From Acidobacteriota bacterium (GTDB lineage: Bacteria > Acidobacteriota > Terriglobia > Acidiferrales > UBA7541): a DNA stretch of 38,888 nucleotides. Location: contig QHYM01000326.1 in the NCBI GenBank assembly GCA_003223295.1, positions 1 through 38,888 on the forward strand, given 5' to 3'. Both the position numbers and the translations under genes were made by a program. Shown here one piece after another: positions 518-30,236 of the stretch. A model generated the notes under the pieces. That model saw only the letters and a program-made list of their open reading frames with translations. It did not search any database and was not told the DNA's origin. How positions within the stretch are numbered: the first letter of the stretch is position 1; the number at the start of each line of letters is the position of its first letter.

Positions 518-600
518 TTGCTCAAACGCGTAGACAACGGGACGTGTTCTGATGAGTGAGGGTGGCGGGGCGAGGGTTGAGTGGCCTGCTATACGAAACA

Positions 601-646
601 AAAGCGAAAAATAGTTGTTGACAAAGCGAATAAAAAGCGAAATACT
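601..646 (+). promoter_or_regulatory. Promoter with three phased AAAGCGAA direct repeats
   Basis: TTGACA (618-623), a 17-base spacer and AATACT (641-646) form a sigma-70 type promoter for the radical SAM gene at 670. Identical AAAGCGAA octamers start at 601, 623 and 634, that is 22 and 11 bases apart, close to two and one helical turns. The second and third lie in the spacer between the -35 and -10 boxes, so a bound protein would be expected to block or modulate RNA polymerase. The regulator is unknown. Confidence 0.5.
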
Positions 647-669
647 ACTGGCCTGCTTCGAGGCGGGCT

Positions 670-1992
670 ATGTCACCAGTTCACTCCCTAACGGCGCCGG
701 ATTTTCGAGCCCTGCGCCGCCACGTTTCACCAACTCCAGAAACACTCTTTCCCGAGTGCCCTGATGACCTGAGCCCAAAGCAAATGGCCGGCAACCTTGC
801 CCCGGTTGCGGGCCAACGCGGCAGCATTTCGGATCGCCAGACGACGGATTGCCCCCCGCCGTCACCGGCTACACAGCGGACCCAAGGCCGTTCGAATAGC
901 CCGGTCCGAAATTCTGCCGTGAACCCCCGTGAGCGCGCTACCGCGCGGCTGGTTGGCATTGCCCGCCTTGCTGCAACTTCGCCGCCCGCGGAAACGAAAA
1001 GAAAATCTGCGCAACGGCCAGAATATTTTGTGCTGCCGGTGAAATCAATTCTGAACCGCTGCGATTCGCAGCGCGTGCCGTTCGAATGGACCATCAACCC
1101 GTACCGGGGCTGCGAGTTTGCTTGCAAATACTGCTACGCGCGCTACACGCACGAATATATGGAACTGGATGGCGGAGAATTCGAGAAAAAGATTTATGTG
1201 AAAAAAGATGCGGGGCCGCTGCTGGCGTGGGATGTCGCACACAAGTATTCGTATGCGTCGGACGCGTCCGGCGGAACGCGAGCGGAGCACATTGCGATTG
1301 GGACGGCGACGGATCCATACCAACCCGCGGAACGAGAATATGGCGTGACACGTGCGTGCTTGGAGGAGTTGGCGAAGAGGGAAGGGCTAAGCGTCTCGAT
1401 CATCACGAAGTCGGACCAGATTGTGCGCGACATCGACGTGCTGCGACGAATCGCTGCGCGGTCGGACTTGGCGATCGACATTACTATCACGACGCTTCGA
1501 ACGCGGCTTGCGCGGATGCTTGAGCCGCGCGCGCCTCGTCCAGATTTGCGGCTGGTGGCAGTAAAGCAATTGAGCGAAGCGGGGTTGGCCGTTGGAGTTT
1601 CCGCATCACCGCTGATACCGGGAATTACGGACCGGGAAGGCGATTTGGAAGCGGTGGCGGCTGCGGGGAAAGAGGCGGGCGCGCAGTGGTTTTTCTCGGG
1701 AGTGCTGTTCCTGATGCCGTCCTCGGCACAACAGTTTTTCCCCTTTTTGCGGGCGAAGTTTCCGCGACTCGTCCAACAGTATGAGAAGTGGTTTGGCGAA
1801 AGCGGATATATGCCGGAAGAGTATCGGCGCAAAGTGGCGGAGCGCGTGGCGAAGATCCGGCAGACGTATGGTTTTCGGTCGAGGCCGTGGGTGGAGAAGA
1901 AACACACGACGCCGTGCACGCAGATGTCGTTGGGTTGGGATGCGGCCGCAGTGGCGCTAGAAGTGCGCAAGAACCACCGAGGCTATACCTAA
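670..1992 (+). CDS. PA0069/SplB-like radical SAM protein
   Basis: The 440-residue product is a radical S-adenosylmethionine enzyme of the COG1533 group (spore photoproduct lyase-like, PA0069 type). The cluster motif is C148-x3-C152-x2-C155 in the context NPYRGCEFACKYCYARYTHE, a CX3CX2C ligand set for a 4Fe-4S cluster. Downstream segments (IAIGTATDPYQPAE, then SIITKSDQIVRDIDVLR) are typical of this group. The biochemical role of PA0069-type proteins is not settled, and a nucleic-acid-related role is only an analogy with SplB. The ATG at 670 has a weak GAGG 6 bases upstream and sits just behind a good promoter. However, the first ~110 residues are rich in Pro, Arg and Ser and do not look like family sequence, so the true start may lie further in. 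It converges on the cysteine-rich gene at 2082-2720. Confidence 0.85.
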   Translation: MSPVHSLTAPDFRALRRHVSPTPETLFPECPDDLSPKQMAGNLAPVAGQRGSISDRQTTDCPPPSPATQRTQGRSNSPVRNSAVNPRERATARLVGIARLAATSPPAETKRKSAQRPEYFVLPVKSILNRCDSQRVPFEWTINPYRGCEFACKYCYARYTHEYMELDGGEFEKKIYVKKDAGPLLAWDVAHKYSYASDASGGTRAEHIAIGTATDPYQPAEREYGVTRACLEELAKREGLSVSIITKSDQIVRDIDVLRRIAARSDLAIDITITTLRTRLARMLEPRAPRPDLRLVAVKQLSEAGLAVGVSASPLIPGITDREGDLEAVAAAGKEAGAQWFFSGVLFLMPSSAQQFFPFLRAKFPRLVQQYEKWFGESGYMPEEYRRKVAERVAKIRQTYGFRSRPWVEKKHTTPCTQMSLGWDAAAVALEVRKNHRGYT

Positions 1993-7796: not shown

Positions 7797-7817
7797 TATA
7801 ATTTCGCAGAGCGAAAT
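7797..7817 (+). promoter_or_regulatory. -10 box and overlapping palindrome before dacB
   Basis: A perfect TATAAT at 7797-7802 predicts a start near 7809. No good -35 box is present. The inverted repeat ATTTCGC-AGA-GCGAAAT (7801-7817, perfect 7-base arms) is centred on the expected start, a typical repressor position. Its half-site AGCGAAAT also occurs at 636-643 in the radical SAM promoter. Confidence 0.5.
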
Positions 7818-18790: not shown

Positions 18791-19009
18791 AGAACTTGGT
18801 TTGCGATGGCCAGGGAAAAGGCGCAAGCGGAAATCCCGCGAGGCCGAAAGTACCAATGCGCAAGCCAGGGGCGGACTGCTCCACAGGAGCGTTGATCCGG
18901 GGTAATTCCCGAGGAGCCAAGGGAGCAGGTCACCCGTACTGATCCGAGTCAACGGGCAACCGGAGGAACTCGATATCGGTGGAAGACGGCAGTCTCCCGA
19001 CGGTGGCAC

Positions 19010-19043
19010 GAGCCGGATAAGCTGAGAGGTTTAAGTCCGGTTC
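19010..19043 (+). ncRNA. Group II intron domain V
   Basis: Exactly 34 bases, the usual length of domain V. The lower stem GAGCCGGA (19010-19017) pairs with TCCGGTTC (19036-19043), including one G-U pair. The catalytic AGC triad is at 19011-19013. A 2-base AG bulge (19034-19035) sits on the 3' side, as in known domain V. The upper stem TAAGCT pairs with GGTTTA (wobbles allowed) and is capped by GAGA, a GNRA tetraloop. Length, triad, bulge and loop all agree with the family model. Confidence 0.85.
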
Positions 19044-19046
19044 AGT

Positions 19047-19080
19047 GAGAGGCTCGGGGTGCAATTCCCCGGGCCTACTC
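19047..19080 (+). ncRNA. Group II intron domain VI with bulged branch-point A
   Basis: Three bases after domain V, GAG (19047-19049) pairs with CTC (19078-19080). A single unpaired A (19077) follows, and then AGGCTCGGGG (19050-19059) pairs with CCCCGGGCCT (19067-19076) across ten positions with one G-U. The bulged A on the 3' strand is where lariat-forming introns carry the branch point. The loop is TGCAATT. The expected AY end of the intron is not clear in the following bases. Confidence 0.8.
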
Positions 19081-19203
19081 GGCGGAGAGCGGGCGACCGC
19101 TCCCCCAATGCCGATCGAGCCATGCAAGGCTAACGTGCGAACACAATACAGTACGCCGCAATCTCGAATCACTCGGCCAGACGATTAAGTCCTCGCTCCT
19201 TCG

Positions 19204-29495: not shown

Positions 29496-30236
29496 ATGTT
29501 TGACGAAATGGTGGTTTCGAGTCCCCATCCGACACGGACGAAGAAGCCCATGACAGTTGTGTTGTCAGCCGTATTTCAGTTGGCCTTCCTGGGAATCCTG
29601 ATTCTCATCCCGCTGATTTACACCGAGGCGCTCCCGAAGACCATGATGGCTACCATGCTCACTGCGCCTCCGCCTCCCCCGCCGCCGCCCCCGCCGCCCG
29701 CGGCCGTTCAAGTAGTCAAGGTGCGGCCGCAGGTTCACTTAATGGACGCCGGCAAGCTCATGCAGCCCAAGGTGATCCCGAAGGACATCAAGATTATTAA
29801 GGAAGAAGCGGAACCCGATATGGCTTCCGTAGGCGCCGTGGGTGGCGTTCCCGGCGGCGTTGCCGGTGGTTCCATGGGCGGCGTCCTTGGCGGCGTGATC
29901 GGTGGCATGGGCACTGCGCCACCACCCCCGAAGCCAAGGCCGACTGGTCCAGTCCGCGTTGGTGGCAACGTGCAGGCTGCTCGCATCGTCAACCGCGTCC
30001 AGCCCGTTTATCCGCCGCTGGCACGCCAGACTCGTATTTCGGGCACCGTCCGCTTGCACGCCATCATCAGCAAGGATGGCACGATTCAACAACTGGAAGT
30101 GATGTCCGGCCACCCGCTCTTGCAGCAGGCGGCGCTTGATGCCGTTCGTCAATGGCGCTATCAACCGACTCTTCTCAATGGCGAGCCGGTCGAAGTCGAT
30201 ACGACGATCGACGTGATTTTTTCTCTTAACCAGTAG
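29496..30236 (+). CDS. tonB: TonB energy transducer
   Basis: The 246-residue protein transmits proton-motive energy from ExbB/ExbD to outer-membrane receptors. It has a short cytoplasmic tail, one membrane helix (about 19-41), a run of twelve prolines with an alanine pair (57-71), and a Gly/Val-rich flexible stretch (about 112-140, repeated GG units). A second proline segment precedes the C-terminal TonB domain (about 160-246). There VQPVYPPLARQTRISGTVRL, then SKDGTIQQLEVMSGHPLL and AVRQWRYQPTLLNGEPV are the usual landmarks. The start ATG 29496 follows GGAGGT with 8 bases between. It is directly behind secF and ahead of exbB. A perfect 12-base palindrome CTGGCGCGCCAG (30243-30254) lies just past its stop. 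Confidence 0.93.
   Translation: MFDEMVVSSPHPTRTKKPMTVVLSAVFQLAFLGILILIPLIYTEALPKTMMATMLTAPPPPPPPPPPPAAVQVVKVRPQVHLMDAGKLMQPKVIPKDIKIIKEEAEPDMASVGAVGGVPGGVAGGSMGGVLGGVIGGMGTAPPPPKPRPTGPVRVGGNVQAARIVNRVQPVYPPLARQTRISGTVRLHAIISKDGTIQQLEVMSGHPLLQQAALDAVRQWRYQPTLLNGEPVEVDTTIDVIFSLNQ

Follow-up and report, generated by a model that had tools for sequence, protein, structure and literature searches.

Repeated GCGAA half-sites in the promoter of an Acidobacteriota radical SAM gene: a probable double LexA operator

Upstream of a radical SAM gene, near the start of the window (the whole stretch of 38,888 nucleotides that was analysed; contig C68 in a genome of 6.03 Mb and 481 contigs), the octamer AAAGCGAA is repeated within a short distance. 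This raises the question of what the repeated unit is and which protein, if any, reads it. The first-pass annotation had described three copies on one face of the helix, two of them inside the promoter spacer, and had suggested a shared regulator of GCGAA-type sites without naming it. All three copies were found in the sequence (601-608, 623-630 and 634-641), 22 and 11 bp apart. A scan of positions 400-1000 gave one sigma-70-like promoter with 10 of 12 matches and a 17-bp spacer, where 0.1 was expected. The octamers at 623 and 634 do fill this spacer, each hexamer being overlapped by one base. A fourth half-site, ACGAA at 593-597, lies 11 bp before GCGAA at 604-608 and had been overlooked. Not the octamer but two GCGAA half-sites at 11-bp spacing form the actual unit. 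The features of the region are the following:

593..608, + strand, predicted LexA box A (upstream, imperfect): ACGAA 593-597 and GCGAA 604-608, 11 bp apart
618..623, + strand, promoter -35 hexamer TTGACA (promoter scan)
626..641, + strand, predicted LexA box B (in the promoter spacer): GCGAA 626-630 and GCGAA 637-641, 11 bp apart
641..646, + strand, promoter -10 hexamer AATACT (promoter scan)
660..667, + strand, ribosome-binding site GAGGCGGG (read from the sequence)
670..1992, + strand, radical SAM gene, 440 aa (PF04055, 44.7 bits, cut-off 29.5)

Box B is GCGAA-N6-GCGAA, which is TTCGC-N6-TTCGC on the opposite strand. Box A has two mismatches to GCGAANAAAAAGCGAA and starts 33 bp upstream of box B. 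The gene product reached the cut-off of the Radical SAM superfamily PF04055 only; its best NCBIfam matches, the Rv2578c and PA0069 families, stayed under theirs (233 vs 430 and 225.9 vs 360 bits). We take it to belong to the COG1533/SplB-like group.

The octamer as such is not rare, with 4 copies in the window on both strands against 3.2 expected. The clustering is unusual: only 2 of 200 simulated windows contained three copies of any one non-self-overlapping octamer in a 45-bp span; the sole other such triple in the real window is GGCGGCGT at 29853, 29877 and 29889. Missing enrichment was one of the outcomes that, according to the first-pass annotation, would refute its idea, and none appeared within the own genome, where the loose motif with up to two mismatches was counted 37 times against 36 in the control, and GCGAA-N6-GCGAA 44 times against 40. 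Enrichment is visible only across genomes: the core pattern GCGAANNAAAAGCGAA was counted 124 times across all 36 genomes of the genus, compared to 5 for the reversed control.

Matches to the radical SAM protein were detected in 49 of the 61 genomes searched, own genome included, and 30 of the promoters were read (the own one plus 29 from the genus). The first-pass annotation had named the disappearance of the repeats from close relatives as an outcome that would refute its idea; instead, the in-spacer pair was kept in 30/30 homologous promoters. The pattern TTGAC-N3-GCGAA-N6-nCGAA fitted 29 of them, with the box following TTGAC, and the 30th (L023) was shifted by one base. In most of the promoters printed, a GAGG-containing stretch like GAGGCGGG precedes the ATG. 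The box thus overlaps the promoter and is retained upstream of the orthologues, as in a LexA-regulated promoter. The upstream pair, nCGAA-N6-nCGAA, was present in 25/30 promoters and missing in 5, and lies 29-33 bp before box B. Because this distance varies, the two pairs are loosely phased with each other, but inside a pair the spacing of 11 bp does not change. The claim of a common helix face is strictly true only inside each pair (11 bp); between the pairs the distance is 33 bp here and 29-33 bp in the relatives that have both. From TTGAC through the box, the mean major-base fraction over the 29 anchored promoters was 0.93, a value inflated by the anchor pattern, which required TTGAC and most half-site bases; it was 0.39 at 50-100 bp upstream and 0.51 just downstream. 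A chance cluster without function would agree with the ordinary octamer count and with the lack of enrichment in the own genome, but it is already contradicted by conservation, since the pair stands in every homologous promoter while the bases further upstream drift, and since 124 matches face 5 in the genus control. We regard it as having next to no probability.

The suggestion that a regulator reads GCGAA-type sites is supported, and this regulator, which had been left without a name, can with good confidence be predicted to be LexA. The lexA promoter of the own genome (G000:C75) reads TTGACG-TTCGCTTTCTTTTCGC-CTAAAGT. Thirty lexA loci of the genus were read, from 36 genus genomes with a LexA match; TTCGC-N6-TTCGC was present in all 30, with TTGAC just before it in 29. 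The same box was found in 72 of 80 further lexA loci, the best 80 of 491 in the named collection. This set includes two loci titled Betaproteobacteria and Dormiibacterota (L172, L229) and overlaps the genus genomes, and both sets are related by descent. We trained a scoring matrix solely on these 72 lexA boxes, so that its half-sites are invariant by construction, the training having demanded the strict box. With this matrix, 625-642 ranked first in the window at 28.3 bits (training median 27.6), and 592-609, which is box A, ranked second at 15.8 bits. The best scores in 60 simulated windows had a mean of 13.5 and a maximum of 20.1, and box A alone is therefore not significant.

The own genome encodes a full-length LexA (G000:C75; TIGR00498, 196.5 bits, cut-off 110.95), composed of a DNA-binding domain (PF01726, 68 bits) and an S24 peptidase domain (PF00717, 102.8 bits). 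Residues A94-G95, S127 and K165 were invariant in five aligned LexA proteins of the genus; by analogy with E. coli LexA, we take them to be the cleavage site and the catalytic pair. A full LexA was found in nearly all of the 36 genus genomes, the match in G030 being a contig-end fragment. Further LexA-type DNA-binding domains were also seen, in the own genome at C135:16445-16627 and similarly in G011, G018, G019 and G031, mostly in frames of about 90-120 aa. They may be LexA paralogues or remnants.

Direct repeats of 11 bp over a promoter also suit the CarH/LitR-type MerR and the OmpR/PhoB-type families. Another reader of such repeats, from one of these families or a LexA paralogue consisting of the DNA-binding domain only, for which the 119-aa frame at C135:16445-16627 would be a candidate in the own genome, appears improbable to us. 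Against such a reader stand the box in lexA's own promoter, throughout the genus loci and in most of the further loci, and an SOS-like regulon. The short LexA-like matches also occur in a minority of the 36 genomes, whereas a full LexA occurs in nearly all.

Reading the repeats as a double LexA operator before the radical SAM gene, which we consider very probable from the sequence comparisons, we looked at the genes that share the box. Of the 124 core-pattern sites in the genus, 121 were read, the three left out (two in G001, one in G015) each adjoining a radical SAM match. In total 108 of the 121 sites precede radical SAM, Y-family polymerase, DinB-superfamily, dnaB, RecA/ImuA-like, recQ or lexA genes. 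Seven sites were assigned by eye (one radical SAM, three smpB, three small ORF). The sites were distributed as follows:

Radical SAM: 33/121 sites, 5 of them second, upstream boxes
Y-family polymerase: 27/121 sites, 20 by protein match and 7 by conserved leader sequence only
DinB-superfamily: 16/121 sites
dnaB: 15/121 sites
RecA/ImuA-like: 10/121 sites
recQ: 5/121 sites
lexA: 2/121 sites
Others: 13/121 sites, comprising 3 small-ORF, 3 inside smpB, 1 ArdC-like (by eye) and 6 without assignment

Pfam searches with one representative each backed the assignments to the DinB superfamily, IMS polymerase, RecQ-type helicase, DnaB and RecA-type ATPase. The name DinB superfamily goes back to damage-inducible genes and does not denote a polymerase. 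TTGAC was found at the set distance, on either strand, at 73 of the 121 sites, including 27/33 radical SAM, 25/27 polymerase and 16/16 DinB-superfamily sites. Core SOS genes thus carry the same box: lexA in 30/30 loci, the Y-family polymerase at 27 sites and recA in 27/27 loci with one mismatch. It counts against this reading that 13 of the 121 sites do not precede repair-type genes and that the recA box is imperfect and distant, as do the missing enrichment within the own genome and the low score of box A with its absence from 5 of the 30 promoters.

In 14 of the 15 dnaB cases (for instance L364, L037, L058 and L092) the distance from the box to the start is 4-26 bp, and three in-phase GCGAA stand before own dnaB at C434:27142-27168. 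These positions bear on the idea that phased A-runs merely bend the DNA or act in the manner of an UP element, with GCGAA read by no protein. A-runs do recur, together with the half-sites, at intervals of about one helical turn. However, GCGAA itself is conserved while the bases between the half-sites vary, and the box occurs in both orientations and, just before dnaB, also downstream of the promoter; we consider this explanation very improbable.

Several other observations were made among these sites. At the Y-family polymerase the box is followed by a long conserved leader, with CCGTTTCCCGTTTCCTCTACC on the other strand and a GGCTC...GAGCC-like stem (L043, L053, L091, L095, L104 and similar); this leader is perhaps a structured RNA. 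One LexA-type box lies in the intergenic region between a DinB-superfamily gene and a divergently oriented DUF1572 gene (L034, L048, L140 and similar). A box also stands just before a small conserved protein of about 102 aa (L306, L342, L349), for which the one representative tested gave no Pfam match. In three genomes the core pattern falls in the coding region of smpB (L314, L331, L345), probably due to conserved codons and not as a site.

For recA, 30 loci were fetched and 29 read, two of these without upstream sequence, leaving 27 readable. All 27 have the one-mismatch box TTTGC-N6-TTCGC upstream of recA, and in 20 of them a second, opposed strict pair lies beside it; two opposed LexA-type boxes far upstream of recA are seen for example in L295 and L141. 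In the own genome some 400 bp or more separate the box from recA, and a 67-aa frame lies in this interval. The own genome has nine sites with at most one mismatch to GCGAANAAAAAGCGAA. Six precede radical SAM, lexA on C75, recA at C38:21330, recQ on C299, a DinB-superfamily gene at C38:12777 and a DEAD helicase on C114, and three do not precede such genes. The promoter of the own Y-family polymerase is missing because the best match starts at a contig end.

Beyond the genus, TTGAC-N1/2-TTCGC-N6-TTCGC was found at 93 places in 61 of 151 genomes drawn from the class, compared to 18 control matches (both counted manually). Outside the class, 12 of the 178 phylum genomes examined had it, and the control matched 3 times. 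The exact string is strict, and its absence from a genome is therefore not proof that the box is absent.

A LexA dimer on box B, in the 17-bp spacer, would block RNA polymerase at the radical SAM promoter. Repression would probably be strengthened by another dimer bound at box A, which lies roughly three turns of the helix further upstream. It is established for LexA that RecA stimulates its self-cleavage after DNA damage. We infer the same here: RecA filaments would make LexA cleave itself at the Ala-Gly bond, and the radical SAM promoter would open, along with those of lexA, recA, the Y-family polymerase, recQ, dnaB and the DinB-superfamily and ImuA-like genes. A repair-type radical SAM gene would in this way be kept off until DNA is damaged.

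The published system nearest to this one is probably that of Acidobacterium capsulatum, a member of the same phylum, whose LexA box, published for this one species by Mazon et al. 2006, is reported to be GTTC-N7-GTTC, a direct repeat of the same period. Its recA promoter is reportedly without a LexA box, in contrast to the recA loci here, which have one upstream. In titles and abstracts, with few subscription journals covered, we found no paper on a LexA box of Acidobacteria or Terriglobia beyond A. capsulatum 2006, and nothing linking Rv2578c to LexA.

In alphaproteobacteria (PMC8565304, PMC3323433), LexA binds the direct repeat GTTC-N7-GTTC and controls SOS genes through it. That box has the 11-bp period and the TTC core in common with the one in the window, but the conserved half-site here is TTCGC. 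Strict GTTC-N7-GTTC was found in only 3 of the 80 lexA loci (best 80 of 491) and not at box B, which reads TTTCGCTTTTTATTCGCT. The LexA box of Balneolaeota, TTACACATATTTTWTACATA, is likewise a direct repeat, and its regulon includes a radical SAM protein besides lexA, recA, a helicase and polymerases IV and V (PMC7739468); the repeat type and the radical SAM member are as here, whereas half-site sequence and phylum differ. The Gram-positive box GAAC-N4-GTTC (PMC3323433) has a GAA/TTC half-site likewise read by the LexA domain, but as an inverted repeat, compared to the direct repeat found here. SplB/COG1533 radical SAM genes are described as SOS-regulated in several species in PMC8565304, and the SOS-controlled SplB gene is linked to DNA repair there and in PMC3765255. 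Compared to these genes, the window protein does not reach the NCBIfam cut-offs of the named families nearest to it. PMC8565304 also counts 17 distinct LexA motifs reported by 2021.

The kind of system is already known, since direct-repeat LexA boxes and SOS-controlled SplB radical SAM genes are both known. Added here are a class-wide box consensus, the predicted double operator and dnaB as a putative member of the regulon of this genus. That LexA of Terriglobia in general reads TTCGC-N6-TTCGC, and that the SOS regulon of the genus reaches the replicative helicase dnaB, is a proposal to which we would give even weight for and against. To our knowledge, LexA control of a replicative helicase is not expected from the well-studied regulons. 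If the proposal is true, damage would alter how much replication-fork helicase is supplied, as well as acting on the repair genes, and a tighter or later switch would be set where there are double operators, at the radical SAM gene and close to recA. With LexA as the probable reader, a promoter repeat that had no name turns into a switch that is specific and open to testing, and an SOS box becomes available for soil bacteria of a large group with few cultured members. This is one more case for the open question of the frequent changes of the LexA box during evolution. The data also favour the view that radical SAM genes of the SplB type recurrently belong to SOS regulons, and they point to LexA control of the replicative helicase.

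It had also been suggested that AGCGAAAT at 636-643 recurs as a half-site of the palindrome ATTTCGCAGAGCGAAAT at 7801-7817, over the dacB start site, and that one regulator could read both. Both strings are present. The link itself was rejected, as TTCGC-N3-GCGAA was found in the own dacB upstream region and in 0/29 relatives, and the direct-repeat box was absent from all 30 dacB upstream regions (own and 29 relatives). The dacB palindrome is thus outside the LexA-box system. In 10 dacB upstream regions that were printed, a TATA-type box after CTTTCGA or similar recurs, and the right arm of the palindrome drifts. Elsewhere in the window, a match to the group II intron domain RF00029 was seen at 19008-19083 on the + strand (48.8 bits).
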